A stretch of DNA of 23,735 bases from positions 1-23,735 of the IMG/VR virus record IMGVR_UViG_3300029319_000518. One strand, 5' to 3'. This document shows, piece by piece, positions 3,403-23,735 of the stretch. The translations under genes and the position numbers were made by a program. Origin of the DNA: a virus. The notes under the pieces are model-generated. The model saw nothing but the letters and a program-made list of their open reading frames with translations, searched no databases and was not told the DNA's origin. Position 1 is the stretch's first letter. Every line of letters begins with the position of its first letter.

Positions 3403-6400
3403 TTAATATGCTTTAATTAAGTATTTACACGTTCTGTAAGGATGTATTAATGGTACATCTATGTCTGGATCAATAGTAGCCTGTGGTTCAATTTTAGTTG
3501 TTGCTTTCATTGTTAATGTAGCATCACTACAACTAAGACCAGAACTATATGTAACAGAAGGACCGACTTCACCTTGAACTGTATAAGTTAATGAATCAAC
3601 ATTTTGTTTAAGTATTTTACCAGCAGTAGGAACATATACTAAAGTGGTTGCCTTTCCATTCCACCATATAAATTCACAAATTGCAAAATGATCTGTATTA
3701 CCAGCATTATCATTTGTAGATGATGCATCAGCACGTGTCTGTTCTATTTTAAAATTAGTACCTGATGCCTTTGCATTTTGTGGTAATGAAACTGTATAAG
3801 TGTACCATTTAGTATCACCAGAAGCACCATCCCAAGTATTATTCAAATCAACAGCTGGTACAGTACCAATAAAAGGATCATTTCTTGATGTAGTTCTTCC
3901 TGCGATAATAGTATCAACCAATATCCAAGTAGTAGGTGATCCTGCTGTTGAGTAATATACTTTCAAGGATTCTTCTGATGCATCACCACCGTTTACACCA
4001 TTTCCTCTCGCTGCTTTAATAGAAAAATATTCTGCATTTGATGTATCTACAGGCATCAATTCTATCCATCTCGTTTTAGAACCAACAGAAGTCTGATTAT
4101 GATTTCCTCCAAATAACACATAATTTGTATAGGCAGTTGCACCAGTAACAGCAATACTATCAACCTTGTCAGAATTACCTCCAGTTCCTAGAGTTGCAGT
4201 AGCAACTGCGTTTCCACCTTGACCATTTAACACATGAACATATGGTGTCTCAGTATATCCAGATCCACCATTTGTTACAGTAATACCTGTAATTAAACCA
4301 CCTGTCATAACTGGTGTTGCTGTCGCACCAGTTCCACCACCTCCACGAATTAATATAATTGGATCTGCGGTTGGAAGTTTAAATCCACCAGCATTACCAG
4401 TTCCAGAACCATTGGTGTTGATTGTGACATCATCAACAGTTTGATTAAATGATGCTGATTTAATAAGAGCATCTTCAGTTATAACTGTTGTTGGATTATC
4501 ATATCCAGTAATAACACCAACTTGTACCTTAGCATATCCATCACCACCATTACTAGTGGTTCCTGTTGTCTGTCCTGACATTGACACACCTGTACCACCA
4601 GAACCTACTTTAACTTCAATTGATGCAGGAGAACCTAAATTTGCAAATTGCACAAATCCATTCCAAGTTCCACCAGCAGCACCACCACCTCCACCAGGAG
4701 TCCAATAGTCATCATTATAATTTGCTACCATTATAACTTTACCATTTGATAGGTTAGAATCAACCATAGTTCCAGAATCAAAGTAAGTAGTAGAATAAGA
4801 TGAAATTCCTTGATTACCACCAGCACCACCATCATGACCTCCGTTACCACCAGGTCCTCCACCAGGTCCACCAGCACCGCCACCATTTCCAGATCCACCA
4901 GTAATTTGGCCAGGAGTACCGCAGCCACCGCCGCCACCTCCTCCTCCACCACCGATACATCCATGATCACCACCAGTTCCACCACCACCCAATCCGAGTG
5001 ATGAACTTGTTCCTTGAATACCTCCAATTGGACTAGGTTTTCCAGTTTGTCCTGTACCACCATCATATCCATCAGAACCAGCTCCACCACCACCGCCAGC
5101 ACCAGCGACAACAGTATTATTTCTTAAAAGTGCTGTAGCAGCACCACCTCCACCACCACGAGCACCATTATGACCACTACCACCTTTACCACCATCGCCA
5201 GAACCTGACATTTGTTTTCCGTTCGTATTTGGCGAATTATTAGAGTGTCCTGCTCCTATTTGACAAGACCATGTTGCAGTTTTAAAAGTTGCTAATTGAC
5301 TACTTTTTAAGGAAATATTTACTTTAGCACCTTCACCACCGTTTATATCACCTGAAACACCTGAATATAAAGCATCACTACCTCTACCACCATGTAGTTC
5401 AAAAGTAACTGAAGTGAGATTGTTACCACCACTAAAAGTGAAATTAGCATCACTGGTTTTTGTTTGAGTATCTGTACCACTTTGTCCACCAACCAATACG
5501 TTTACTCCTGCACTACCATCACTATATGAACCAGTCTGAACACCACCAGCACCACCACCATTAGGATTACTTGGATAATCTATATACGGCCATCCATTTC
5601 CTGAAGTACCTTGTTGTCCATCAGCACCTGGTTGTCCAGATACTGCACCAGCAGCGTTTTCACTACCAGAATTGACAGCTAATCCAACAGAACCACCTGT
5701 ACCACCTGCTAATCCACTACTACCGTTACCTTTACCACCACCATTTGCTTTTAAATATATTTTTGATCCATCACCAACTTTTATGTAACTCTGTGTGCCA
5801 TTATTACCTGCTTTTGTACCAGCAGCACCTGATCCACCGCCACCATATAATGAATATGTTAACCTATCTGGTGTACCACTAATAGAAGTTAAATCAATAG
5901 TATATGTTCCAGGAACAGTATATTCAAAATCAGTATAGTCAAATATTGGTGTACCACCTATTGTAGATAATTTACCTCCTAACACTGTAGTGGTAAGAAT
6001 AGGTTTCATTATTGGGTTTGGTATGGTAGTTTGAAATTCAAAAGATCCAGATCCAGTACCAGACGCAAGATAATAATCACCAGGTTCATTAGCACCACTT
6101 GCAAATCCTGCTGTGGGGTCAGCAGTACCACCTGTACCACCTGCACCACCTGCAAAATCAAAAGCATCATATGTTGCAATCGTATTATCACTAAGAGGTC
6201 CTCTTAAAAGACCATGCTTATGTGTTAATACAACACCATCACCAGTTGGATACCATCTAGTAACTTTTCCTGTTGATGGTTTATAATCTTGAATATATCT
6301 GTCTCCACTTGCACCACCAACCCATTCACCACCACCAGGAGTAGAGTGATACACTATGTGACTATGCTGAGGAGGTCCTGAAAGTTTCCTCTCTCTCATT

Positions 6401-7262: not shown

Positions 7263-8648
7263 TTAGATCTTAATTAAATATTCCATAACAATAAATGGAG
7301 CAGTTGCAGAATCAATGGATCTTGATGCATCAGTTCCTATGGACATTGTTGTATCTAGGTTTTCTGGATTGACAACGATGGCATTTGTTTTTACTTTGTA
7401 TGTATGGTCACCCTTAACCAAATCAATACGATGATTATGTAATGTTGGATCACCATTTGCTGATTGATCTAAATCAACAGTATCAGTTTCTATATTTTGT
7501 ACATCAGGTACTACTCTATTGTCATTAACTTGAAAATTTGATTGTAAAGGAAGAACATCATGTAAACTTACACTACCAAAATCAGTTGGTACACCAGGTA
7601 ATCCACTGGCATATGTAATAGGAACGGTAAAAGTATGTGATGAAGGAGCTCCACTACCATTAAAAACACATCCAAAAATAGGAACTTTTGTCTTATTAGC
7701 ATAATAAGCAGTATTTTGTCCATCTGGTGATCCTTCTAAAATTCCACCATCCAATGTGTAAGTTGCATTATTAATGCATTGATATGTAAATTCATTACCG
7801 CCTGGTTGCCAACCACCTATAATACAATTACCCCAATAAATTGTTTGTTGATTTCCAAAACCTTGAGTACTAATTGTAGATCCACAAGGACTAACAGGAC
7901 ACCAACGAACTGTGCGACATTGTTCTTGAGCACTTCCAGGATGTCCACTACTATTTGCAGTAGCGTCCAACCAATCTTGTATAGCAACTGTTGATGCATT
8001 TAATCTACCAGCAAATCCTTGCACCTGTGGTTCATTAGTACTGTTCTCATTAGTGGTTAATATTCTTTCTCTAAGAGCAGTATGAAAATGAGAATGTGGA
8101 TGAATAGAATTTTCTTCAACACCTTCTGTATCAGTATAATGAGTAGCACCAGCATATTCCCATGATGGTTTGCCTTTTACTTCAATCTCTTGACTAGGTA
8201 CATCAATCTGTCCTGAGTATTCTATATTAACGGGAGATCCAATAGCAGATTGTGCTTCAATACCAATACCAGATCTACTAAACTCATTTCCTAAAGCATT
8301 ATTCAATCTTATATTATTATATACACCTGCGTTAGCACCCGAAGTTGGTTCTGCATATTTAGATCCCATATCAGGAACCATAAATTGAGTGTCTAATAAA
8401 TTATCAAAATTAGTGCCATCTGCATTTTTTCTGATAAACTTGCAATTAGATCCTGTTCCACATATAGCAGCAAGTTGTGGATAATCTTCAGCAAAGTATT
8501 TTGTACCATCACATTTTAAATAACCAGCAGGTAAATTATTTACATTTTGTCCGTCATCTGGTAACCCATTGTAATCAACTGGCCAATTTATAATTTGACC
8601 TGTTAAATTACCATACTTAGATCTTTCTTTACTGTATAAAACTGCCAT
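7263..8648 (-). CDS. Tail_Collar fibre protein, 461 aa
   Basis: I place the start at the ATG at 8648-8646, giving [17 protein letters not shown]. It overlaps the TAA of the previous gene (TAATG). A longer frame begins at a TTG at 8681, but this only adds 11 residues inside the neighbour. Residues 42-94 form a Tail_Collar domain (GYLKCDG ... [10 protein letters not shown] ... TQFMVPDMG). HPHSHFH at 183-189 is a run of overlapping HxH motifs, and LHNH follows at 403-406. These suggest metal-binding positions in a trimeric tip, as known for T4 gp12 and gp37. Nine cysteines (46, 63, 69, 244, 250, 255, 275, 291, 327) are many for a phage fibre. The C-terminus ends [11 protein letters not shown], the typical closing strand of collar-type fibres. 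It sits between two other collar proteins and is probably a receptor-binding or baseplate-attached fibre. Confidence 0.87.
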
Positions 8649-10300
8649 TAGTATGCTTTGATTATGAACGTAATTGTACAACTAGGTTGTGATGTATCAC
8701 ATGAAATATTTAGAGCATTTTCAAGACTATCTGCTTGCAATGAAGATCCATTTGCATTATCAGCAGTATGTGATGGAGGACCTGACATAGATCCAATACC
8801 CTGAGATATTTCAAAACTACCATGATTATGTGCTCTAAATGCTTGCTCTAAAGGATCTTTATTTTCCTTACCTTGATTGAGCGACATTGGCCACGCACCA
8901 TGTCTAAACACCAAAGTCTCTACACCAGCAACTGTACCTATTTGATCTTTCACAGTGATTGTATATACATCAGTTGTTGAATCATATACTATGTTTTCTA
9001 TTTGAGAACTACCAGTAGATGTCCAATAAGTATACTTTTTAGAAGCATCTTTTACAGTAACAAACATCAATGGAGTAATTCTATCATGCTGAGTCCATGT
9101 ATTTGGTGAAGTACCATAAGTTCTAGCAATGCTAGTTCCAGCTGGCAATGCAATATCTCTTGTACCAGCAGGAAGAGTTACACTAGCAACTTCAAAAGCT
9201 GCATTTACATGTTCTGGATCATCAGCCATGGCATCAGCGGATCTTGGAGAACCATTATATCCAAAGAAGTTTGGTCTTGCTCTTCTTTCCATTGGTCGTG
9301 GAAACATACCAACATGTGCTGGTACTTTATGTGTATCTACTGGAGTTGTGGCATTGATAGCACCAGTATTACCTTGACCAAATAGGTTTTGAGTATAGGT
9401 TGAAGATTCTTGACCAGATCCTCTGGTAGCTCCTCTCCAGTTAGCAGTACCAGCTGGAACATGGTTCCAATAATTTTTACCAGGTTCATTAACAAATTCA
9501 AAAAATCTATCACAACGTGGTAATGTCCATTCATGCTGTTCATCACCAAAATGTGTTAGAGTAGTAGCACCATTCTGCCATGATACTGGTTGAGCAGCTG
9601 CATTAGCACATGTATTAGGACCATGAGTTGCATTACATATACTTGTTGTTGATGTACCAGACATTGCAACACCTTCGTCTGTTTGAAATAACATAGCTCC
9701 AGTAGCATTTGGAGCAACACTTTGAAGTGTATCGCTATGACCGTGTTGAGGAGTGTGATTGATACCCAACTTACGATTAAGGACGTACACTGTTTCCAAA
9801 AAGTCAGGAGCACTCAGGTTCATATTGGTAAATTTAAAATACAAATTACCAGCAAGATTCAAAGAAAAATCAATATCAGATGTTGCTTCATATGTTGTTG
9901 ATATTGGGTTTGTCTCACCATAATCTGCAACTCTATTTCCTAATACAGTTGCAGCATCTGACTGTCCTTGCTGATACTTAGAATTTTGTAAATTTGCAGG
10001 TTCTAAATCCATTAACACACTATTAGATAATTGTGGTAATCTAAATGTTGCTGCTGTACCAATATAAGGAAACTCATAATGATTATTTTGAGAATCAGTC
10101 ATATCACCACCATAGGTATCACCTATGACTGACGCTAATAATGGATAATCAGAAGCAGATAATGTATCTCCTTTACATGTAATCCAACCTTTAGGAATAT
10201 TAGATTCAAGAAATCCATTTCCTCCATCACCACCCCAAGGCATGATTGTGCCAATCTTGGCAGATCTCATTGTCTTTATTGAATCGTATTTTACCGTCAT
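8648..10300 (-). CDS. Tail_Collar fibre protein of cyanophage type, 550 aa
   Basis: The N-terminus MTVKYDSIKTMRSAKIGTIM, followed by PWGGDGGNGF, is one I recall from structural proteins of T4-like cyanophages. Residues 38-92 are a Tail_Collar domain (GWITCKGD ... SDYPLLASVIGDTYGG ... ATFRLPQL), with CKG in place of the usual CDG. NHTPQHGHS at 181-189 and AHNHG at 490-494 are HxH motifs. GSMSGPPSH near the C-terminus recalls the SGPPQHSH of the 1285 aa protein, which suggests these proteins are paralogues. It ends TITFIIKAY. The ATG follows the giant gene's stop by 3 nt, with GGAG (10313-10310) 9 nt upstream inside the end of that gene. Its stop overlaps the start of the 461 aa gene. It is likely a tail fibre or tip component; the exact place in the virion is unknown. 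Confidence 0.9.
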   Translation of the reverse strand: MTVKYDSIKTMRSAKIGTIMPWGGDGGNGFLESNIPKGWITCKGDTLSASDYPLLASVIGDTYGGDMTDSQNNHYEFPYIGTAATFRLPQLSNSVLMDLEPANLQNSKYQQGQSDAATVLGNRVADYGETNPISTTYEATSDIDFSLNLAGNLYFKFTNMNLSAPDFLETVYVLNRKLGINHTPQHGHSDTLQSVAPNATGAMLFQTDEGVAMSGTSTTSICNATHGPNTCANAAAQPVSWQNGATTLTHFGDEQHEWTLPRCDRFFEFVNEPGKNYWNHVPAGTANWRGATRGSGQESSTYTQNLFGQGNTGAINATTPVDTHKVPAHVGMFPRPMERRARPNFFGYNGSPRSADAMADDPEHVNAAFEVASVTLPAGTRDIALPAGTSIARTYGTSPNTWTQHDRITPLMFVTVKDASKKYTYWTSTGSSQIENIVYDSTTDVYTITVKDQIGTVAGVETLVFRHGAWPMSLNQGKENKDPLEQAFRAHNHGSFEISQGIGSMSGPPSHTADNANGSSLQADSLENALNISCDTSQPSCTITFIIKAY

Positions 10301-10303
10301 TGA

Positions 10304-10720
10304 TTATAACTCCATGAGCCACCAACCTCTTAAGGAAGCTGGTATTGTTTGTTGTGATGTGGATCCTTCTATATCATATGTACCAACAAAAACTAATCCA
10401 AATGCACAGTTACGTGTCTGAATAACTAATTCACCAGAATCCCATGCCACTGTTCTTACTTGACCAGAACCTGCATCAAGTTTAGATCCAGTATTATCAC
10501 CTTGAATTGCTGTAGATACATTATTAATTTTCTTCGCTCTAATAATTAAACTTGTATTGTATGTTAAATTACCACTAAGTTCAGTAAATCTAATCATATC
10601 ACCTGTTTGTGGATTATCTGGTAGATATAGAACCATATTGCTTCCAGATGTAGCATTGATCAGATAGTTGTTGTTAACCTGTAATGGATTAGTCTCTTGC
10701 TGACCTATACCAGTTGTAGC
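10304..10720 (-). other. C-terminal domain of the giant protein ending RGWWLMEL
   Basis: The last ~135 residues contain YLINATSGSNMVLYLPDNPQ, GDMIRFTELSG, LIIRAKK, AWDSGELVIQT, AFGLVFVGTYD and a terminal RGWWLMEL. The alternating pattern suggests a compact beta-sandwich. I recall similar GWW-containing endings in other cyanophage fibre or baseplate proteins, so it is probably a trimerisation or attachment domain. This is memory-based and not verified. Confidence 0.5.
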
Positions 10721-13700
10721 ATCAAATGCAACATATGTGTGTCTTCTACCACCATTTGATGTCCAGTATTTTTCAATACCAAATGAATCAATAGCATTGT
10801 TATGATAGATTGTAAAGTCTTTAGGACCAACAGTACCACCAGTTCCAGCAGATCCAAGGTTATCTATCTGGAAGATTTTATCAGTCGCAGATTCTATAGC
10901 AAGAACCTTACCTTTCTGATAATATTGCTCACCTAAGAATATACTTCCCTCAAGAGCTGTCATCTTAATAGATTCTACACTATTACAGACTCCATTAGAC
11001 TGACATGATTCATAGAATATTTTAAGATTACCATAGAAGTTACCATTACCTTTAAGTGTCATACCATTGGTATTGGTTACTGGATCTTCAATTGATCCAT
11101 CACCTATGTGACCATCATCGTTTGCAATAGATAGAACTAAAGTTTTACTATCAGAACCATACATTCTAAGAACACCACTGTTGATAGTAAAGTCATCATT
11201 AACAGTTGTATGACCACCACCATATAAATCAATTAAAGTTGTAGCAACAGTGTTTGGATTCCTATAAGACTTAGGCATCTTGACCTGATAGAAAGCATCA
11301 AGAGTTCCATCAACACTATCAGTAAGGAAGAACTCAGATCCAATTCTGATGAACTGAATGTAATCAAGTTTTGGTTGAATTAAATCAGCGTCTACTAATC
11401 CTATTTCAAGTCTTGTATCAAGAGTGTTAGGAGTTCTTGCCTTGAATGTCTTACCAGTTGCAGGTGCTCTCAAAGCACGAGTAGCAGGTAAATCTTCTAG
11501 TAATGTTGTTGTTCCTAACTTATTCAACTTAACAACATTAAGACCAACGCCAGCATTTATTGCAGTCGTTCCTTCTACACCTCTACCACCATTAGTATAA
11601 TTGGCATTAGATGATGTTGGTAAGAACTGATTTGATCCACTTACATATGGTGCAGCAGTAATTTGTATAATCTCAATTTGATTACTATCGTAAATTGCTA
11701 CTAAATCACCAATTGTAAATGCTTCATAATTTGCTTGAATTTGAATATTAGTTGTTGCTGGTACAACAGCGGCTGCTATTGTTGTGAATGGTCTTGTAGC
11801 AAGAGTCGTGTTGGATGATTGTGGATCATGTTTGTAAACATGAACTACATCAGTAGTTGTGTATCCAGCAGGTGATGTGCCAAAGGACTCAGCAATAGCA
11901 AAGTGAGTTCCATGCTTATTACCAATTGTTGTATCACCTGTGCAAGTATCAACCTCAAAGGTCTTAATACCACTACCATTTGTTATAGTCAACTTTTTGT
12001 TGGTGGTTGCGTTAACATATGGTGTAGTGCATGTTCCATTTAATGTAAGACCACCAGTGTATGACTGATCACCATTGATGGTTACAGCACCAGTTACAGA
12101 GTCAACTTCAAATAATGTATTCTCTGAATTAGTATCACATCCATTTTTGACGGAGAATTTTTTAGAAACTTGATCTAATGTAGTCTTGAGTTCAAATATT
12201 TCACCATCACTACCATTAGAAGGACGAGAAATAATTACATAATCGCCAGGTTGTCCTGTAGCACGATTATCAGAACCTGTCAATACTCCACCAAATTGTG
12301 ATAAGTAAACATTATCTTCTGCTCCAGAACCATCAATAATTTGAGTAGTCCATGTAGCATCAAACTGAACAGTACACTTATAAATGTTTGTTGTATCAGG
12401 ATGCTCTGTGCTTATTGTTGATAAAGTTCCAAATGGTTGTCTCTGAACCTCAATGTAGTATGGTGTAGTATTAATTTGTGGTAGACGTGTAATCTTCACA
12501 AATTCAGCATGTTCAGTTCCCTGTTCAACAGTATCAATAAGTAGAATATCATTCTCATTATAATACTGAGTACCATTTGCATCATAAGGAGTTCTCTTAA
12601 GTGGTAAGTAGTACTTGTCTCCTGTTAGTACTGGGAATGTAGCAACACTCTGACCAGTAGGAGTTTGTTGATATGAAGTTCCACCCCAATCACCAGAACC
12701 AGCTGTATCAATCTTATTAAGTTCTCCTGTTGCAGCAGTAGAAACTAAAACAGTAATTAAGTCTACATTATTATCAAAGAGATTGTTACCAAGAACACCA
12801 CTTGTATGACTCTGAATTGTAGAACCAGCCTGTGCTCTACGTCCAACGAAGGAGTAAGAAGCATTACCACCACATAATGTTACATCAGCATTAAATCTTG
12901 ATGTAGCATCAACAACTAAATTGTTTCTAATTGTAGTTGTACCACCTTGACCAGCAATTCTCAATGTAGAAGCATTAGTAGCAAAGTCTACGATACTTGT
13001 TGCACTGTTACCAGATAAGAATTCAACAGTTCCAGATGGAGATTCAAACTTAGTAGAATCAGTTAATCCTCTTCTAGTACCAAGTATTACATCACCAGCA
13101 GTCTTAAGTGCTTTAGTATCAATCTGTACGAAGGAGTCAGATTCAGTGCTTGCAAATGCACCACCAAGAGTTATCTTAGACTTATTAGAATTAGATCCAT
13201 CAATACTATCACCAATAGTAATCTCACTATCACCACTTGTATTACCAATCTTGATATTTTGTGATCCAGTTGTTACATTACCAATTTCAATGTTTCTTGC
13301 AGATCCACCAATCAATAGACCTTGAGTTGGTCTGGTTCCAGTTGTTAATCCGACAAATGTATTGTTATTGAATAATGTTGCTGTACCATTAGTAATGGTT
13401 GTATTAATATCAGCACTATTAGCACTACCTGCACCACCACCGTTGACTGAAATATCGTCTTGGAATACAGCACTAGCAGTAAATTCAGAAGTTCCAGTGA
13501 CAGTTAATGTACTGTTCATATTTGCTAGAGTTGTATTAATACCAACTCTTCCATTGTTTGTAGTAGAAACTCTAAATGTTGCTGCTGTTTGTGGAGCAGA
13601 ACTATCACCACCAACCATGAATGCATGATCTTGAGCAGTCTGAGTTCTTGCTGCATATGTTGAATGAGCAGCAAAGTTTTCAATAGTCTTACCACTAATC

Positions 13701-16700
13701 CATGCAGTACCAACAACATCTAAGTTAGCAAGAGGATCAGTCGCAGCAGATACAAATGCGTCTGCATAATCAACATGAGCAGCACGAGCAACAGTGTTAA
13801 TACCAATCTTAAATTCACCAATAGTCTGTGTATCAGTTCTAATTGTCTGAGCACCAAGTACACCAACTTCCTTCCAAGAAGCATTGGCAAGTTTCACCAC
13901 AGCATTTGGTGTATTTGTACTATTAAATATTAACTCGCCAGCTGAAATAGTATCATTAGCATTGATACTAAATGTACATGTATTACCACCATTGGTAAAT
14001 CCAGTATTAATTAAGAAAGTTCCATTAAGTTTGTTCTCAGTTAATCCTGATAACTTAATTTCTTGACCAGCAACCAAACCACCAGTTATGACATTTCCAT
14101 TAGTGACACCAGACTTCCACTGAATTGTAATAGTTCTGGTAGAATTAAAGATAAACTTCTCAATCTGAGAGGTAATTGTTGTAAAGGAGTTAGAGAATAT
14201 CCAACCAAGTGAACCACTATTTCCTACAGACTCACCCTTAAGTAAGATATCTCCAGTTAAAGGAGCTCCTGCTGAACCATAAGCAACAACCTGTGATGCA
14301 TCATAAGTTCCATCTTGATCAGGAGTAATATTAGATGCTACAGATGCAACAGCATGTGTTTGAATCTTATAACCTTGACCAGATCCAAGTGAACCACGTT
14401 GGTTGAACTGGAATACACCAGCTATTACCCTATTACCTGCAATTAGAATATCACCATTGCTCTGGCGATTCTTAGTCATTGCAGTTCTATCAAGACTTGA
14501 ATCATCCTTAGTGGAGGATACATTAGATACAACTTTTAGTGAAGATAGAACACCAACATTGGGCAGACCTAGTGTTAAATCTCTAACGTCAGCACCAACA
14601 TTAATGGTTACAGGTGAGTTGAAGGTGCTTGTTTGATCACCATTTTCACCACCATTGACTGTAATATACTCATTAAATGTAACAGGAGTGTCAAATGTAG
14701 TAACTAGATTTCCTATTGCATCATCTTCATCCTCAGATGCTGTAAGTGATGCAGACTCTAGGAATATTTCTTCACCAGTGATAGCATCAATCTTACGGTT
14801 ACCAATGTATAGGTCACCATTACTATTAAGACCAGTGTAGAATACTAGACCACCATCTTGTTTCTTAGACTGTGCAAAGAAATCTTGCTCTACAGTCAAT
14901 AGAACTTCTTGACGTGCTGGTAAACCAGTACTGTAGTTACCTGGACCAAAACCGAGATATTCAAATGTGTGGTTACCTGCTCTTGCAATAGATGGTCGTC
15001 TCAGTTCAACGTACATACGTTGATCAACAACAACTGTGCTGTCACCTGCAATAGATATCTTACGATCTTCAGATCCAGCTGATGCATTACCACTCTGTGC
15101 TTCAAGTTTGTTACTACCTGTGTAGTTATTGTTCTTGAGTGCTTCAGTAGCAAGGAAGTCAGTAACAGATTCTTTTGTCAATGAACCCTTGAAGTCATTA
15201 ACTGTAACTAAACCATGAACATAGTTATCAGCAGCAGAATATGTTTGACCAGGATCCTTAGCGTTAGGATCAAGTTGCTTGAACCATACTGGATCATTCT
15301 TATAATCTAGTGGATATAACTTACTAATTGGTTGAGAGAACTTAAAGTTCCTGAAGTTACCTAAGTTACCTGCACCTTGTGGGAATGGTGATATGTTACC
15401 ACGAACAGCTGTTAGATAGAATATACCATCTTGCTGATCAAAGATACGTCTCTGTATTTCCTGAACATCATAAACGTAGAATGTTTCATCAATCTCACCA
15501 GCATCCTCTACAGATTCAACATAGAATTGTATGTTAGCAGCGTCAGTAATAATATCACCAGGTGTGATAGTATAAACTTTAGCACCATTTTGTCTGTAGT
15601 AGAATTGTGGTAGACCTTCTTTAATAAGATCCTTACGTACAAGTGACTTACCACTATCAGGGAAATCTATAAGATCTGCAAATACAGAACCTTGAGTAAA
15701 TCTGATGTTATCTGTAGATGAATACTTAATATCACCACTAACACCCTTAAGAATTAAGTGCCATGTAGATGTATTAGGTACATTCAATGCAGCATGAATA
15801 TAACCAGAACCAGATGAATTACCAGTCCATGTTACAGCGTTGGCAGTAACAGATGATGTCTTGTTAGCAGTAAAGTTACCACCTTGAGGTGCAGTTATCT
15901 TGACTGTTGTAAAGTTCTCATTCTTAAGTCCAACATTTGTAATATTATGGTCAAATACAGTAAGTTCTAAGTACTCATTGCTATTCTCTGTGTAATATCT
16001 ACCAGACTGAATAGACATTGAAACATAGTTTGATGTCTCAATAGTTCTTAGATAATTCTTAGTTCCTTTTGTATCTTTCTTATATGGATCATAGAATATA
16101 TTTTCACCAGAAGCATTAGTCTTAGCAATACTATTTGAGGTAAATTCAGCATCAGTAAATCCAATAACTTCGTTTGCGTTACCACTATCAGTTGTGTTAA
16201 AGAATTTCGCTTTGGTTACGTTACCTGTTACTGGTTTTAATTTAATTTTTTGTGGTAAAAGTTTTCTTGTATCATCCTTTCTTGCCTTGATACTAAATCC
16301 ATTTAGAGGATCACGAACAGACTTGAGATACTTAGGAATAACATAACGTAAACGATAGATACGATCATTTGCTTCTCTTTCAGAATCATCAATTCTTTCA
16401 TAGTAAGAGTCATTTGTTTTATTATTACCAGAACTATCACTATATTCAGAATCGTGGAATCTTCCTAAAATACTCTGAGGATTTGAAGACTCATTCTTAA
16501 CATTTAAGTACCATTTACCCTTATCGCTAGTTCCAACATTACCATCATATGTTGGATCATAACGCATAGGTGACTCACGCTTATCTGCAAATACAGAGAA
16601 GTTATAAGTTCCACTGTTTAGAGGAACAAATATGATAGGATTAGTTCCTGCTATTGCATCAGCATGTGTTTTGTGTATTGTAATTACCTTAGCAGTATTA

Positions 16701-19700
16701 TACTTAGCATAGAAGAACTTATCTCCTCTAAGTCTGCTACTACTATCAGCAACATCAGGATCATTGGCAGATGATCCACCTACGACTGGTAAGTTACCAC
16801 TTTCATTCTTTCTAAAGAATACTTTATGAGGTGTAACAGAAGCGTTAGGAACATCAAATATATGAGGAATATCTGTAATAATTCCTCCACTAACAGCAGT
16901 TGAAAGAACACAACCATATTCATGTAGATCATATTTGTCATCAAGAACAAATTGATACATATCAATCTCAACATCTGGATGAATTGCTTCTACTTCAGCT
17001 GAGTGTATGTAAATACCAGCAGCTGCGTTATCCTTACTGCTTGCAAGCATTAACTTAGTTTGATCACTTCCATTAAATGTTGTTGTACCAGAGTAATCTT
17101 CTGGTTTTGTAATTCTACCAGGTGCAATTACATAATACTCTGTATTAGTGTCAAAACCATTAGGTAGTCTTACATTACGTTTATCAACTTCAACATACTG
17201 ATTAGTTGTTGTATTATAACGAGGTCTTGGAACCAATCTTACAGGAGTTCCAGTTTCTAATTGGTGAGGATTAGAACCTGATGTAGGTCCTGGTGTCCAA
17301 TCTTTTAATCCCCAAATAGTTGCTCTAGCAGCAAGACTAGAAGTAGCACTAGGAGGTTGAGTTCTAGTTACAGTCCCTACACCAGTCTGAATGATTGTTG
17401 TAATATTAGCAAAGTACTGACGTATGGTATCAGAAACACCCACACATTCAGGATAGGTTGTATCTTGAGTAATAGTTTCATCAACATCTGGTGTATATGC
17501 AGTTGTGTATCTACCAGCTGGTAGTGTAAAGTAGAGATATGTATTAGTTGTAGTAGCAGTAGCATTAACAGCATTACCTGTTGATAATCCTAACGGTGCA
17601 ACATTTCTCTCAATAGAACTTAAATTACCTGGTGTAGTAATTGTATCTGTGATTAACTTATAAAGAGTTGTAATAGCAGAAGCAACATTCTGGCAAGGTC
17701 CGTTAGAAATATTTCTAACTACATTGTCTAGTGAAGCTGGTGTTGTTACAGTATCGGTGACAATCTTGAATAGAGTATCAATAGTAGACTTGACATTATC
17801 ACATCTCGCACTACCTGTGTGTCCTGTTCTGGTTACAGTAGCAAGAGTTTCTGGTGCTGAAATAGCATTCTGTACAATATTAGACAGAGTAGTAATTGCA
17901 GATTCTACAGCATTACACTTGTAAACTGACTGAGTACGTGTAACATCTTTGAGTGTTGAATTATTACTAATCGCATTAGTTAGAATAGTTGATAATGTAG
18001 TAATATTATTAATTTCACTTGTTAGTTGTGCATCAGTCCAGTTAGTAGTATTAGCACCAGAGTAACTAATTTGACTGAGTGTAGTGTGTCCACCAATAGT
18101 AACTGCATCACTCTTAATTACTTGAAGAGCAATATCTTTTAGATGATTGATAGCTTCTACTGTTTCAGTAATAGCACCACCTTGTACAGCACCACCAACA
18201 TATAAGTTAGCAGTATCCCACATACGATCATTACCACCATGCTTGATGTTAAATGCAAGTACATCAACGATGTCTAACAAGTCATCATTGCAGTCAGCAA
18301 TTGTATAACCAACAGGAGGAGTATAACCAGGATTATTAGCAAGCATTCTACCCTGTGCTATATCGGCAATGAATTGTCTATTAAGTGTCAATAGAGTTGC
18401 AGAATCACCCGCTTCATTACTTACGATGCTTAGATTATCACCTGTAATTGTATTATCAAATGTCTGTGTCAATCCATGCTTACCAACAACAAGAACTTTT
18501 TCATTTCTCATTGCTTGGATTGCTATCTGTGTAGCATCTTGGAATGCTTCTAATGTTTGAGTTTCTTCGCCAGCAACATGAGCACCCTTAACATATAAGT
18601 TTGCCATATCCCAGACTCTATCATTACCACCAAATCCTACATTGAATGCAACTTCAACAACGAAGTCCTTGATGTCATCAATACAATCTTGCTTATTACC
18701 AGTTGGAGGTAAGAAACCAGGATGATTAAGAAGCATTCTCTCATATGCTTCTGCTGCAATAAACGCAGCGTTAGCATTAAGAAGATTGTATGCATCACCA
18801 GCACCATTGTTTATAGAAATTTGAGTATCAAGTGTAATCGTGGTATCATAAGTTTGATGTAATCCATGAGAACCAATTGCAAGAATTTTCTGGTTCTTAA
18901 TGACCTGAGCTGCCATGTCTTTGGCATGTTCAAATACTATATTGGTTTCAGTTTCTTCACCAGCAACGTGAGCACCTGTCTTATATGAGTATGCAGCATC
19001 CCATGTCTTATCATTACCACCATATGCTACGTTATCTGCAATTGCTTCTAATAGATCTCTAACATCATCAACACAATCAGAGTTATGATATGTTCTATTA
19101 CCTGCAACAGAGAATATCTTATGAACTGAATCAGTCTTAGCAGATATAAATGTGTGTGGATAAACAGCACCACCCTTAACTACTCCTCTCTTAATACTAT
19201 TTGCAACAGCAGATACAAATGTATGTGCTGTAGTATTTGTAGAAGGTGCAGATGCTAGTGTCTGTAAAGTAAATGTATTAGCGTCTATAACAGTTATTCT
19301 TACCCATTTGTTGCTAATAGGGTCTGTTGCTCTAGGATATGAGTGGTTAGTAGCGTTACTATCTTGAGCACATGTAAATGTAAATGCATTGTCAGCAATT
19401 TTGACGAAATCATCAGTCTGCATTCCATGATTAGCAACAGTGACTGTCATAATACCTGTAGTAGGATTATATGCAGCATTTGTTGGTGTTAGATCAGTTG
19501 CAGGAACAAACTGATGATCATACTGTTGACCAGGTGCAGAAGCACCTACATTAACTGTGATAGTTCCTGCTTGTTTCTCAATAGCATTTGTAGCAGCTCT
19601 CTTAAATGTGTGAACACTAGATGGTTCATACTTAATACTATTTGCTACAGCACTGTCAAATGTGTGTGCAGACTGTGGTAAGTATTGAATTGCTTCAGAA

Positions 19701-22700
19701 AGAGCACTTACAAATGAATGAACGTACTGATCACTAGCAGCAGAAACACCTACATTAAATGTGATATCTCCAGTTTGTTTCTTAATTCCATTTGCTACAG
19801 CAGATACAAATGTATGTGTAGAATTATCAGAAGATTTACCAACATTGACTGTAAATGTATTTGTTGTTTTACTTCTTATCTGTAACCAACGATTACTTGG
19901 ATAATCAAAACCAGCACGAGGATATGTCTTCTGTGCTGTATTACCATCAAGACTGCATGTAAATGTCAATGATCCATCAGCAACCTGTATATAATCACCA
20001 CCATTAGTAACAGAGTTAGCAACAGCAGACACAAATGTATGTACAGTTGTATTTGTAGATGGAGTGTAATCTAATATTTGAACGTCAAAAGTATTTGTAG
20101 TTACATTAGATACAGTAAGAGCTCTACCACTTGCAGGATCATTTGGTCTTGGATATGAATGGTTAGTTACGTTACCATCTTGAGCACATGTAAATTTAAG
20201 AGCATAATCAGCAATTCTTACAAAATCATTATTTTGTAGACCATGATTTGCAATAGTAAGAGTTACAATACCTGTAGTTGGATTATATGCAGCATTTGTT
20301 GGAGTGAATACAGCAGGACCGTTGAATCCATGATTTGCAACTGTAAGTGTTAAATCACCAGTTGTGGAGTCATATACTGCATTAGTTGCAGTATGGTCTG
20401 AAGAACTAACATCTGTAATTCTTATTGACTTACCTGCAAATGGGTCAGTGCCAGGACGAGGATAAGAATGTTGAGTTGCATTACTGTCCTTAGAACATGT
20501 AAAGGTTAATGAATTATCTTTAAGAACTATGTCATCTCCAACACGCAAGCCATGTTGTCCTATGGTTGTTACCATGACACCCGTTGCAGGATTGTATGAA
20601 GCACCTGAAGGCTTAAAGAATTTGTTAGTACCAGCGTTACCTACCTTAACAGTAATGGTTGTTGCTGTTACTGCTGTAATCTTAAGTGATCTACCAGATG
20701 CTTGATCTCTACCTGCACGTGGATATGACTGTGCTGTATCATTACCATCCATTGTGCATTTGAATGATACTGCACCATTTTCAATTAAAACCCCTTTCCC
20801 TTTCTTAAGACCGTGAGCTCCAATAGTTAGAGTTAAGTCACCACTTGCAGGATCATATGTTGCATTTGATGGAGTAAAGGTTTGATTAGAACCTGCTTCA
20901 CCAACAGAAACTTTAAATGTATCAGCAGTTACATCAGAAACTGATAACCACTCAGCGTCAGCAGGATCTCCCTCTCTTGGATACTTATGCTCTGTAGCAT
21001 TATTATCCATTGCACATGTAAATGTTAGAGAGTCTGTTGCAAGTCTAATTCTATCTCCATTTACAAGACCATGAGCTGCTTTTGTAAATACTAATTCTCC
21101 ATTTGTAGGAGTATATGCAGCACCAGTTGGTGTGAAGAAAGAACTACCAACATTAGTAATCTTTAATGCATTCTGATATGCTCTGTCTTTTCTTCTCTCA
21201 ATAGCATTTGTAGCAGCACTAACAAAAGTATGTAATGATACGTTTGTGGAAGGTGTGATATTTAAAGTTTGTATATCAAATGTATTTGTAGTTACGTTTG
21301 ATACTGGAATAAACTTACCACTAATAGGATCAGTGTTACGTGGATATGTTTTTTGAGTAGCGTTGTTATCAGTAGCACAAGTAAATGTTAGTGAGTTATC
21401 TACAACCTTAATTAGATCTAAGTTTTCAAACCCGTGATTATTCAGAGTAAATGTTAAAATACCCGTTGTTGGATTGTATACAGCATTAGTTGGTGTATGT
21501 TGTGTTACATCACCTCTAGGATATACATGTTCAGTAGCATAAGAATCTTGTGAACATTTGAATATTAGAGATCCATCAGCAAGTTTAATACTTTGTCCTT
21601 CATGGAAATTATGATCATTAACAGTTAATTTAAGATCACCAGTCTGAGCATTGTAATCTGCATCTGTTACATCAAAGTTTGTAGCAGGTGATTTACCAAT
21701 ATTGATTGTAAATGTATCAGTTGTTGAATCAACAAGAGGTAATATGCTTGCACCAGCTGGATCTCCTGATCTAGGATATGAATGCTGTGTAGCATAGTTA
21801 TCCATACCACAAGTAAAGTTCAATGCATTGAAATCTATTCTGACTGCATCATTTTCTGCTAGAACACCATTAGCAACAGCAGATACGAATGTATGAGCAT
21901 ACTGATCACTTGAAGCAGAAGCACCAACATTAACTTCAAATGTATCTGTTGTTTTATTTGATATTGTTAACCACTTTAAACTAGAAGGGTCAGTTGAACG
22001 TGGATAAGTATGATTTGTTGCATTACTATCTTTAGTACATGTAAAGGTGAGTGAATCATCTTTAATTAAAATTCTCTGTCCATTAGTAAATCCATGAGCG
22101 AGGATTTGCAATACCAATTTACCGTTAGATGGAGTATAAGTTGCATTGGTAACTGTATGTACACTTGCCTTAGTCATACCATGACCAGCAGCAGTGATAA
22201 CCATTACACCAGTCTCGGCATCATATGTTGCGTTAGTAGGAGTATACTTCTGAGTTGATGATTCAATAATCATCCTTTCAACTGACTCAGCAGCAATTAA
22301 ATTTTTATTAGCAAGAATAAGGTTACGAGCATCACCATTTCTATCAGCAACTAATTCTGGTTGATCAGTAGCAACAGGATCATTAGCAGTAGTATAAGTT
22401 TGTGTTAGACCATGAGTACCAAAGATGAAAACTTTCTCTTTACGCATGACCTGAATTGCCATGTCTTTACAGTAGTTAAATGCTGCAAGAGTCTCATCTT
22501 TCTTTGCTGCTAGGTCTTGGATAGCACCTCTTTCATAGTAATCAGCAGCGTCCCATGTCTCAGCGTTACCACCATAACCTGTGTTTTCTGCAACAGCTTC
22601 TAATGCTTTTTCTAGGTCATCAATACATTTTGCTTTACCTGTAGCAGCATTGTATCCAGAAGAAGGTGTATAATTAGGGAAATCAAGAAGCATTCTTTCA

Positions 22701-23735
22701 TATGCTTCTGTCGCAATAAATGTCTTATTATTGAGAATTAATGCACGGGCATCACCAAAACGACCCGTTACAACTTGTTTAGTTGCAGTTTGTGCGTTGT
22801 CACCTAACTCAATAGATGCTGAGTCAAGAACTCTCTTAACAAATGTATTGTTAGGAATTACAGGAGTTGTTGGTCTTGTTGCACCAGTATTCAACTTTCC
22901 ATTTGTAAACTGACTAGGATCATAGTCAGCAACTGTCATACCTTCTACAACACCACTAGTATCACCAATATTAACAATAGCACTATTATTAGTGGTGTCT
23001 ACACCTTGACGTAAGTATGTGAAGTTACGCATTGCTGCGATTGCAAGATCCTTAGCGTAGTTGTAACCCTCTAAGGTTTCTGTTAGTTCACCATCAATGT
23101 AAGATAGATTAGTACCAACATAGTAAGATTCAGCAGCTTGAATAGTGTTGATATTGCCACCAAGTCTTAGATCCTGAATTGTAGCATCAATCAAATATCC
23201 AACGTCTCTACGACATTTGGTAATAGTAATTGTTTCTTTTACCTTAAGTGCAGGATACTTAGCAAGAATCCTATCATATGCTTCATGTGCAATAAAATCT
23301 TTATTTGCTTCAATTCTATCAGCAGCGTCAAGAATTTTATTATTAATAGTTACACCAGATGGATTTAGTATATCAGCTGTAGCAGTGAACTTTTTAAATC
23401 CACTTGGTTCTAAAGTAGCAAAGAATGTATTGTTACCGCCAGCAGTTCTTGGATTTAATTTGACATATAATTTATCATCTGTCTTAGCACCAATCCTATA
23501 TCCACCAATAGTAGCAGCAGGACGTTTCTTTGGATCTATTGCACCATCATCACCATGATACACTTTTGTATCATTGCCAGTATCATTTGATGCATAAACG
23601 TCTAGTGTATAGTATGACTGTCTCTTGACATTTCCAGAAGTCTCATCAACTGTTTGAGGAGGAATAATATCTGTAATGAATCCACCCTTGTCTTGGTTGA
23701 ATGCAAATCCTTTGAAACCAATAGCATGTAAGGAT
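10304..23735 (-). CDS. Giant modular tail fibre/structural protein, at least 4476 aa, N-terminus outside window
   Basis: The frame is open without a stop from the right edge to the TAA at 10306-10304. A GTG at 23563 is only an internal codon, because the frame continues upstream with about 57 more residues (including GGFITDIIPPQTVDE). Regions in order: GYRIGAKTDDKLYV near 23500; five helical modules (23335-18065), the third split by a long FTC/HTFVSA repeat array (22246-19118); short helical repeats (18030-17590); a mixed, beta-rich section (17330-14760); a shaft-like region with VGINTT, TVNGG and IEIGN...IKIGN...ITIGD rungs (14760-12700); further beta domains; and a C-terminal domain ending RGWWLMEL. 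Such endings and modules occur, as I recall, in long proteins of T4-like cyanophages. Its position ahead of the collar proteins fits a proximal or long tail fibre. No signal peptide, enzyme motif or autoproteolytic S74 domain is seen. Its virion location is inferred. Confidence 0.9.
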   Translation of the reverse strand, partial: SLHAIGFKGFAFNQDKGGFITDIIPPQTVDETSGNVKRQSYYTLDVYASNDTGNDTKVYHGDDGAIDPKKRPAATIGGYRIGAKTDDKLYVKLNPRTAGGNNTFFATLEPSGFKKFTATADILNPSGVTINNKILDAADRIEANKDFIAHEAYDRILAKYPALKVKETITITKCRRDVGYLIDATIQDLRLGGNINTIQAAESYYVGTNLSYIDGELTETLEGYNYAKDLAIAAMRNFTYLRQGVDTTNNSAIVNIGDTSGVVEGMTVADYDPSQFTNGKLNTGATRPTTPVIPNNTFVKRVLDSASIELGDNAQTATKQVVTGRFGDARALILNNKTFIATEAYERMLLDFPNYTPSSGYNAATGKAKCIDDLEKALEAVAENTGYGGNAETWDAADYYERGAIQDLAAKKDETLAAFNYCKDMAIQVMRKEKVFIFGTHGLTQTYTTANDPVATDQPELVADRNGDARNLILANKNLIAAESVERMIIESSTQKYTPTNATYDAETGVMVITAAGHGMTKASVHTVTNATYTPSNGKLVLQILAHGFTNGQRILIKDDSLTFTCTKDSNATNHTYPRSTDPSSLKWLTISNKTTDTFEVNVGASASSDQYAHTFVSAVANGVLAENDAVRIDFNALNFTCGMDNYATQHSYPRSGDPAGASILPLVDSTTDTFTINIGKSPATNFDVTDADYNAQTGDLKLTVNDHNFHEGQSIKLADGSLIFKCSQDSYATEHVYPRGDVTQHTPTNAVYNPTTGILTFTLNNHGFENLDLIKVVDNSLTFTCATDNNATQKTYPRNTDPISGKFIPVSNVTTNTFDIQTLNITPSTNVSLHTFVSAATNAIERRKDRAYQNALKITNVGSSFFTPTGAAYTPTNGELVFTKAAHGLVNGDRIRLATDSLTFTCAMDNNATEHKYPREGDPADAEWLSVSDVTADTFKVSVGEAGSNQTFTPSNATYDPASGDLTLTIGAHGLKKGKGVLIENGAVSFKCTMDGNDTAQSYPRAGRDQASGRSLKITAVTATTITVKVGNAGTNKFFKPSGASYNPATGVMVTTIGQHGLRVGDDIVLKDNSLTFTCSKDSNATQHSYPRPGTDPFAGKSIRITDVSSSDHTATNAVYDSTTGDLTLTVANHGFNGPAVFTPTNAAYNPTTGIVTLTIANHGLQNNDFVRIADYALKFTCAQDGNVTNHSYPRPNDPASGRALTVSNVTTNTFDVQILDYTPSTNTTVHTFVSAVANSVTNGGDYIQVADGSLTFTCSLDGNTAQKTYPRAGFDYPSNRWLQIRSKTTNTFTVNVGKSSDNSTHTFVSAVANGIKKQTGDITFNVGVSAASDQYVHSFVSALSEAIQYLPQSAHTFDSAVANSIKYEPSSVHTFKRAATNAIEKQAGTITVNVGASAPGQQYDHQFVPATDLTPTNAAYNPTTGIMTVTVANHGMQTDDFVKIADNAFTFTCAQDSNATNHSYPRATDPISNKWVRITVIDANTFTLQTLASAPSTNTTAHTFVSAVANSIKRGVVKGGAVYPHTFISAKTDSVHKIFSVAGNRTYHNSDCVDDVRDLLEAIADNVAYGGNDKTWDAAYSYKTGAHVAGEETETNIVFEHAKDMAAQVIKNQKILAIGSHGLHQTYDTTITLDTQISINNGAGDAYNLLNANAAFIAAEAYERMLLNHPGFLPPTGNKQDCIDDIKDFVVEVAFNVGFGGNDRVWDMANLYVKGAHVAGEETQTLEAFQDATQIAIQAMRNEKVLVVGKHGLTQTFDNTITGDNLSIVSNEAGDSATLLTLNRQFIADIAQGRMLANNPGYTPPVGYTIADCNDDLLDIVDVLAFNIKHGGNDRMWDTANLYVGGAVQGGAITETVEAINHLKDIALQVIKSDAVTIGGHTTLSQISYSGANTTNWTDAQLTSEINNITTLSTILTNAISNNSTLKDVTRTQSVYKCNAVESAITTLSNIVQNAISAPETLATVTRTGHTGSARCDNVKSTIDTLFKIVTDTVTTPASLDNVVRNISNGPCQNVASAITTLYKLITDTITTPGNLSSIERNVAPLGLSTGNAVNATATTTNTYLYFTLPAGRYTTAYTPDVDETITQDTTYPECVGVSDTIRQYFANITTIIQTGVGTVTRTQPPSATSSLAARATIWGLKDWTPGPTSGSNPHQLETGTPVRLVPRPRYNTTTNQYVEVDKRNVRLPNGFDTNTEYYVIAPGRITKPEDYSGTTTFNGSDQTKLMLASSKDNAAAGIYIHSAEVEAIHPDVEIDMYQFVLDDKYDLHEYGCVLSTAVSGGIITDIPHIFDVPNASVTPHKVFFRKNESGNLPVVGGSSANDPDVADSSSRLRGDKFFYAKYNTAKVITIHKTHADAIAGTNPIIFVPLNSGTYNFSVFADKRESPMRYDPTYDGNVGTSDKGKWYLNVKNESSNPQSILGRFHDSEYSDSSGNNKTNDSYYERIDDSEREANDRIYRLRYVIPKYLKSVRDPLNGFSIKARKDDTRKLLPQKIKLKPVTGNVTKAKFFNTTDSGNANEVIGFTDAEFTSNSIAKTNASGENIFYDPYKKDTKGTKNYLRTIETSNYVSMSIQSGRYYTENSNEYLELTVFDHNITNVGLKNENFTTVKITAPQGGNFTANKTSSVTANAVTWTGNSSGSGYIHAALNVPNTSTWHLILKGVSGDIKYSSTDNIRFTQGSVFADLIDFPDSGKSLVRKDLIKEGLPQFYYRQNGAKVYTITPGDIITDAANIQFYVESVEDAGEIDETFYVYDVQEIQRRIFDQQDGIFYLTAVRGNISPFPQGAGNLGNFRNFKFSQPISKLYPLDYKNDPVWFKQLDPNAKDPGQTYSAADNYVHGLVTVNDFKGSLTKESVTDFLATEALKNNNYTGSNKLEAQSGNASAGSEDRKISIAGDSTVVVDQRMYVELRRPSIARAGNHTFEYLGFGPGNYSTGLPARQEVLLTVEQDFFAQSKKQDGGLVFYTGLNSNGDLYIGNRKIDAITGEEIFLESASLTASEDEDDAIGNLVTTFDTPVTFNEYITVNGGENGDQTSTFNSPVTINVGADVRDLTLGLPNVGVLSSLKVVSNVSSTKDDSSLDRTAMTKNRQSNGDILIAGNRVIAGVFQFNQRGSLGSGQGYKIQTHAVASVASNITPDQDGTYDASQVVAYGSAGAPLTGDILLKGESVGNSGSLGWIFSNSFTTITSQIEKFIFNSTRTITIQWKSGVTNGNVITGGLVAGQEIKLSGLTENKLNGTFLINTGFTNGGNTCTFSINANDTISAGELIFNSTNTPNAVVKLANASWKEVGVLGAQTIRTDTQTIGEFKIGINTVARAAHVDYADAFVSAATDPLANLDVVGTAWISGKTIENFAAHSTYAARTQTAQDHAFMVGGDSSAPQTAATFRVSTTNNGRVGINTTLANMNSTLTVTGTSEFTASAVFQDDISVNGGGAGSANSADINTTITNGTATLFNNNTFVGLTTGTRPTQGLLIGGSARNIEIGNVTTGSQNIKIGNTSGDSEITIGDSIDGSNSNKSKITLGGAFASTESDSFVQIDTKALKTAGDVILGTRRGLTDSTKFESPSGTVEFLSGNSATSIVDFATNASTLRIAGQGGTTTIRNNLVVDATSRFNADVTLCGGNASYSFVGRRAQAGSTIQSHTSGVLGNNLFDNNVDLITVLVSTAATGELNKIDTAGSGDWGGTSYQQTPTGQSVATFPVLTGDKYYLPLKRTPYDANGTQYYNENDILLIDTVEQGTEHAEFVKITRLPQINTTPYYIEVQRQPFGTLSTISTEHPDTTNIYKCTVQFDATWTTQIIDGSGAEDNVYLSQFGGVLTGSDNRATGQPGDYVIISRPSNGSDGEIFELKTTLDQVSKKFSVKNGCDTNSENTLFEVDSVTGAVTINGDQSYTGGLTLNGTCTTPYVNATTNKKLTITNGSGIKTFEVDTCTGDTTIGNKHGTHFAIAESFGTSPAGYTTTDVVHVYKHDPQSSNTTLATRPFTTIAAAVVPATTNIQIQANYEAFTIGDLVAIYDSNQIEIIQITAAPYVSGSNQFLPTSSNANYTNGGRGVEGTTAINAGVGLNVVKLNKLGTTTLLEDLPATRALRAPATGKTFKARTPNTLDTRLEIGLVDADLIQPKLDYIQFIRIGSEFFLTDSVDGTLDAFYQVKMPKSYRNPNTVATTLIDLYGGGHTTVNDDFTINSGVLRMYGSDSKTLVLSIANDDGHIGDGSIEDPVTNTNGMTLKGNGNFYGNLKIFYESCQSNGVCNSVESIKMTALEGSIFLGEQYYQKGKVLAIESATDKIFQIDNLGSAGTGGTVGPKDFTIYHNNAIDSFGIEKYWTSNGGRRHTYVAFDATTGIGQQETNPLQVNNNYLINATSGSNMVLYLPDNPQTGDMIRFTELSGNLTYNTSLIIRAKKINNVSTAIQGDNTGSKLDAGSGQVRTVAWDSGELVIQTRNCAFGLVFVGTYDIEGSTSQQTIPASLRGWWLMEL
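10310..10313 (-). promoter_or_regulatory. Ribosome binding site of the 550 aa fibre gene
   Basis: GGAG on the minus strand lies within the last codons of the giant gene (ATG GAG TTA TAA) and 9 nt before the ATG at 10300. It supports that start and means that translation of the giant protein's last codons passes over the next gene's binding site. Confidence 0.75.
12700..14760 (-). other. Beta-structured shaft-like region of the giant protein
   Basis: This part of the giant gene encodes short alternating strands typical of fibre shafts. Examples are TFDTPVTFNEYITVNGG, TFNSPVTINV, LDVVGTAWISGKTI, GRVGINTTLANMNSTLTV, then IEIGNVTTGSQNIKIGN and ITIGD, and GDVILGTRRGL. Such segments are common in trimeric phage fibres and give a triple beta-helix or solenoid. 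The boundaries are approximate and the fold is inferred from pattern only. Confidence 0.55.
17590..18030 (-). repeat. Four short helical repeats (SAITTLY-x-IITDTI type) in the giant protein
   Basis: Four units of about 33-38 residues follow module 5: INNITTLSTILTNAI, VESAITTLSNIVQNAI, VKSTIDTLFKIVTDTV and VASAITTLYKLITDTI. Each is followed by a Leu-x-x-Val/Ile-x-Arg-Thr/Asn element (for example TLATVTRT, SLDNVVRN). Three of the linkers contain a cysteine (KCN, RCD, PCQ). A weaker fifth copy, VSDTIRQYFANITTII, lies near 17400. The spacing suggests a helical bundle or coiled stalk segment. Confidence 0.75.
18065..23335 (-). repeat. Five helical modules of the giant protein (ANK-x-FIA-x-EA / YGGN-x-WDAA type)
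   Basis: Each unit begins GDAR or a variant, then ANKxFIAxEAxERML, a short loop, CxDDixDxxExxAxNxxYGGN, WDxAxxY, ETxxAxxxAKDMAxQVMRNEKVL and GxHGLTQTYD. Starts are near 23335, 22756, 22336, 18799 and 18409. The first unit is more diverged (LRLGGN instead of YGGN) and carries a beta insert (SAIVNIGDTSGVVEGMTV). Unit 3 is interrupted from 22246 to 19118. Units 2, 4 and 5 have loops of about a dozen to two dozen residues at the same point. The heptad-like helical character suggests a coiled or helical-bundle trimer segment. Confidence 0.85.
19118..22246 (-). repeat. About 1,043-residue array of FTC..YPR and HTFVSA repeats inside helical module 3
   Basis: Ten units share D-x-SLTFTC-x2-D-x7-YPR-x2-DP, centred near 22042, 21807, 21552, 21375, 21013, 20755, 20493, 20186, 19953 and 19370. 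Most are led by an N-A-x-Y-x-P-x-TG-x-LTLT-x-x-HG element and followed by an ITNVTTNTFxVxVG element. About ten HTFVSAxANAI-like segments are scattered between and after them. Units are typically 60-100 residues apart, and a group of degenerate HTF segments fills the largest gap (19953 to 19370). Cys, Asp and Tyr-Pro-Arg are kept in all ten. It is predicted to be all-beta. Confidence 0.88.

Follow-up and report, generated by a model that had tools for sequence, protein, structure and literature searches.

The fiber gene and its neighborhood

The sample was a 23,735-base IMG/VR metagenome fragment, referred to below as the window. A single unbroken frame encodes 4,476 amino acids of a protein with the N-terminus cut off (Table 1). 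Close relatives have 651 residues before the first helical module versus 135 in the window, and therefore about 516 further N-terminal residues and a full fiber of about 4,990 residues are expected. The protein matched the PHROG 4527 profile with 2,656 bits over most of its length, and the best stretch reached the end of the profile. Downstream of the fiber gene there is a gp12-like gene (PHROG 4591, 8648-10300), followed by a collar-like gene (7263-8681), the same order as in S-PM2. By profile and by downstream neighbors, the window protein is assigned to the giant "short tail fiber" family of cyanophages (Kyanoviridae; PHROG 4527, T4-like GC 734; S-PM2 165928-177267, Syn1_032), in agreement with an earlier note on this DNA, which had called it a giant fiber.

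Two minor observations concern this region. An adjoining gene for a 1,285-aa collar-domain protein contains a short tandem repeat with an 18-base unit (window 5143-5194). About 15 tRNAs are annotated inside the S-PM2 fiber gene (L080, NC_006820.1 168556-173383), but ARAGORN did not find them and the annotation is probably misplaced.

Table 1. Features of the giant fiber gene in the window.
Feature	Window position	Strand	Residues	Remarks
Giant fiber gene, PHROG 4527 "short tail fiber"	10304-23734	(-)		4,476 codons; extends beyond the window at the 5' end
Helical module 1	23015-23368	(-)	123-240	phycobiliprotein-like, KCRRD motif
Helical module 2	22424-22762	(-)	325-437	uninterrupted
Module 3, N-terminal half (RNGDARNLILANKNLIAAESVERM)	22271-22342	(-)	465-488	
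Inserted beta-repeat array	19115-22270	(-)	~489-1540	~1,052 residues; occupies the loop that precedes the CxDD helix
Long repeat unit	21863-22156	(-)	527-624	repeat HMM 132 bits
Long repeat unit	21200-21496	(-)	747-845	repeat HMM 124 bits
Long repeat unit	20009-20305	(-)	1144-1242	repeat HMM 132 bits
Long repeat unit	19193-19489	(-)	1416-1514	repeat HMM 130 bits; nearly all missing in L005
Module 3, C-terminal half (FSVAGN...CVDDVRDLLEAIADNVAYGGN...)	18869-19114	(-)	1541-1622	
Helical module 4	18479-18805	(-)	1644-1752	uninterrupted; modelled with module 5
Helical module 5	18095-18412	(-)	1775-1880	uninterrupted; modelled with module 4

A beta-repeat array in a loop of module 3

Module 3 is broken after ERM and resumes at FSVAGN...CVDD. 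Joined together, the two halves align end to end with modules 2, 4 and 5, and it is only in this joined form that module 3 can be aligned. Natural empty homologs served as the comparison for the joined module and set the limits of the gained stretch. The limits of the earlier note (19118-22246) were off by one residue at the lower end and by eight at the upper, and its count of 1,043 residues was essentially right. Farther along the protein, after module 5, four repeats of about 45 residues (C..V.SAITTL..I..DAI, window ~17585-18013, minus strand) resemble half-modules.

The insert contains ten F[TK]CxxD..YPR motifs. The remainder of the protein has none, and none arose when the insert was shuffled 2,000 times. 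Four of the units are long (about 98 residues) and the others are shorter or partial. Mean pairwise protein identity between units is 37%, and Tandem Repeats Finder reported no array at the insert in the window DNA because the units are too diverged. The units strongly match beta-repeat profiles from cyanophages (PHROG 1276, and also 5342, 18802, 701 and 2885). These families are of unknown function or represent whole giant proteins, and in the sources seen their nesting in a helical module is not described. Pfam gave chance-level matches and no family at cut-off for the window insert; in the insert of a related contig (L030), E1_FCCH was slightly below cut-off.

AlphaFold predicted the array of the filled module with confidence as an all-beta structure. 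When the filled-module model was compared to the PDB with Foldseek, the only matches were to multi-domain beta proteins and were weak, with high rmsd; the repeat fold had no clear relative.

Empty and filled states among related fibers

A search of 75 related viral loci with profiles of both half-modules gave loops of 8-24 residues between the halves; the exceptions are the third modules of the filled clade and the cases described below. Module 3 of the empty group is intact, with a loop of 10-12 residues, whereas in the filled group (32 fibers) the same loop holds 854-2,633 aa of repeats. The natural empty modules aligned to the two halves of the window module, with not a single residue falling within the array. 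As relatives have the same block uninterrupted, the array is a side insertion and not a new in-line domain. Homologs with the two halves as separate complete domains, which according to the earlier note would contradict nesting, were not encountered in this comparison.

In a tree of the module halves, all filled third modules fell into one clade (15 representatives, support 99/86), nested among empty third modules that branch off one after another. The tree was midpoint rooted for drawing, and the other modules serve as outgroup. The filled or empty label required 2 changes on this tree, versus 15 when shuffled. The empty state is therefore ancestral, and module 3 acquired the array once in its lineage.

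The nested array raises the question of an assembly artefact, an intein-like element or a frameshifted pseudogene, particularly as the window is a metagenome fragment. However, 31 further contigs, drawn from many metagenomes, have the same joint, the frame is open and dN/dS is well under 1 through the array, and no self-splicing Pfam family was detected in the insert. We regard explanations of this kind as next to impossible.

Parallel insertions have occurred, both at this same loop and at a second loop of the module. Three loci (L069-L071) have a separate filling of the loop that is occupied in the window, with an array of 434 residues. The second loop, before the last helix, is filled with repeats in L062, L064, L065, L073 and L074, all of which also carry a first-loop array, and in the isolates P-RSM6 and ACG-2014i. 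The S-RSM4 counterpart of the filled ACG-2014i module is empty. A comparable array is found in a linker between modules in L044, and nesting is therefore not the sole arrangement for such arrays. Among the PHROG 4527 isolates examined, none had a first-loop array in a complete module; this filling was seen only in uncultured contigs. The P-RSM6 protein (L082, CPXG_00128, about 8,570 aa) is itself a giant protein with several repeat arrays.

Constraint on the split module and on the array

We compared the window with its three closest relatives (L005, L008 and L009). The module 3 halves were 97% identical (dN 0.014-0.015), the array was 83-88% identical (dN 0.07-0.11), and modules 2 and 5 were 74-95% identical. 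The array is thus under weaker purifying selection than the split module, and the low dN and high identity of the halves indicate that the split module is still a constrained part of the protein. Unit number changes by whole units, as L005 is short of exactly one 97-aa unit. The repeat number proposed as variable in the earlier note does vary, both between close relatives and across the clade.

It is conceivable that the split module no longer makes one fold. The halves would then be separate helical caps, perhaps pairing across trimer chains, and the array would be a linear segment of the fiber. AlphaFold modelled the filled state with a pLDDT of only ~41-73 for the halves (pTM 0.56) and with low confidence on how they pack, which would fit such an arrangement, as would the linker array of L044. 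However, helices that had lost the partners they pack against should be prone to drift. In fact, the split halves were the most conserved among modules 2-5 in 6 of 7 comparisons, and 13 of 14 intact empty modules shared 64-78% identity with them. We therefore consider separate caps unlikely. The conservation of the halves, the intact empty homologs and the descent of filled from empty modules support the earlier claim that the two halves belong to one module whose loop houses the array.

The helical module resembles phycobiliproteins

AlphaFold prediction for the natural pair of modules 4 and 5 (45 sequences) had a pLDDT of 83 and showed five helices per module. The insertion position corresponds to residues 28-37, in a loop between helices. 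A Foldseek search of this model against the PDB returned phycoerythrins as best matches, with a probability of 1.00 and ~2.9 A over ~114 columns, at E-values of only 0.2 and up and TMt values of 0.49-0.57. Sequence profiles of the modules found phycobiliproteins almost exclusively (33 of 34 matches in one search; best match 7.5e-4 in another). The Pfam profile PF00502 scored 35.3 bits for the whole fiber, summed over modules, against a cut-off of 22.2. Single modules of the window were below this cut-off (17.8-18.9 bits), and one S-PM2 module passed with 22.3 bits.

Foldseek, the independent sequence profiles and PF00502 agree, and we therefore conclude that the helical module has a phycobiliprotein-like fold. 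The N-terminal X and Y helices are absent, as the matches begin around residue 38 of the solved phycobiliprotein chains. The modules share the conserved C-x-x-D and GG motifs with phycobiliproteins (PF00502, especially phycoerythrin beta), but differ by an identity of only about 20%, by tandem repetition in a phage structural protein and by the lack of the X and Y helices. The fold recurs among predicted structures of viral proteins, namely those of structural and tail proteins from Synechococcus phages and from uncultured Caudovirales. The likeness had gone unnoticed in the earlier note, and no report of phycobiliprotein-like fiber modules was found in the open-licence literature. A repeated module of many marine cyanophage fibers is related to the light-harvesting protein of the hosts.

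The cysteine that opens the CxxD helix is the counterpart of the chromophore cysteine of phycobiliproteins. Of 229 distinct modules, 225 have both the cysteine and the aspartate (C-x-x-D). The arginine of C-x-R-D is found in only 40 of the 229, essentially those of the module 1 type, which keep the full motif.

Bilin genes upstream of the fiber

In 22 contigs, 1.9 kb or more of sequence precedes the fiber start, and all 22 have a gene of the CpeT bilin-lyase family upstream of the fiber and on the same strand (among them L005, L008, L009, L013, L037 and L049). It lies about 0.5-3 kb upstream, which is beyond the right edge of the window. In 7 of these contigs a bilin reductase gene is located between two CpeT genes, and a heme oxygenase is also present in 4 of the nearest kin of the window. 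Among isolates, S-PM2, Syn1, ACG-2014i and S-RSM4 have CpeT 0.4-1.5 kb before the fiber, and the coordinates agree for further isolates.

These genes suggest that the fiber modules might be, or descend from, bilin-carrying domains. Phage heme oxygenase, bilin reductase and a CpeT-type lyase would then make a candidate chromophore and attach it to the conserved cysteine. We do not take the linkage as proof of function. The CpeT-bearing contigs are relatives of one another, and the interval between gp5 and the fiber also houses unrelated auxiliary genes. S-SSM2 and S-ShM2 are without CpeT and bilin reductase, yet keep the cysteine and the aspartate. For these reasons, and because in P-RSM6 and MED4-213 the genes for CpeT and the giant protein lie far apart, bilin attachment appears very unlikely. 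If it did take place, the bilin "auxiliary metabolic genes" of cyanophages would gain a structural substrate, and the lyase gene next door makes a concrete and cheap test of their purpose possible.

Geometry and role of the array

The above observations are probably best accounted for by a nested beta array that was acquired once, loops out sideways and acts as a display surface. In a string of phycobiliprotein-like modules, module 3 gained the tandem array just ahead of the helix that opens with the conserved cysteine, and it would still fold as one unit from its two halves. The parent loop has only about 11 residues, which fixes the two ends of the array near each other, and looping out from the fiber is the simplest geometry. 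Tethered in this way, the array must turn back on itself to make a loop or a compact bundle and would not project as a free-ended rod. A lateral, looped-out array is our best reading; protrusion and adhesion are inferred.

The core-membrane linker ApcE offers a comparison. Its PB-loop interrupts a phycobiliprotein domain with 50-55 inserted residues (residues 81-136), ahead of the site that corresponds to Cys81 (PMC5436742). The insertion appears to affect the same loop region as in the fiber, with a likeness by position only: the PB-loop has ~55 largely disordered residues, versus ~1,050 residues of folded repeats in the fiber. It can nevertheless serve as a natural, if small, precedent for an insertion here.

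The array could also be mainly a passive spacer or shield, with a length tuned by unit number, and not a binding surface. Whole-unit length change between close relatives and the three-fold length range across the clade would be expected for a spacer, and Pfam detected no known binding domain in the window array. In contrast, the several-fold faster evolution of the array protein than of its host module would be expected of a surface under host selection, and a lectin-like Laminin_G_3 domain (2e-19) is present among such repeats in P-RSM6. Because of these last two points a binding surface is favored, and a purely passive role seems possible but less probable. The array would then most likely be a fast-evolving display surface that binds cell-surface polymers, with its reach set by repeat number.

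The related fibers provide natural before and after states for the building of a branched rather than linear phage fiber. A tolerant loop of a repeated helical module has taken up whole beta-domain arrays, repeatedly and in different lineages. S-BM3 and S-ShM2 (L084, L085) also have the same helical modules, in giant proteins encoded next to gp25-gp6, close to where T4 has gp7.
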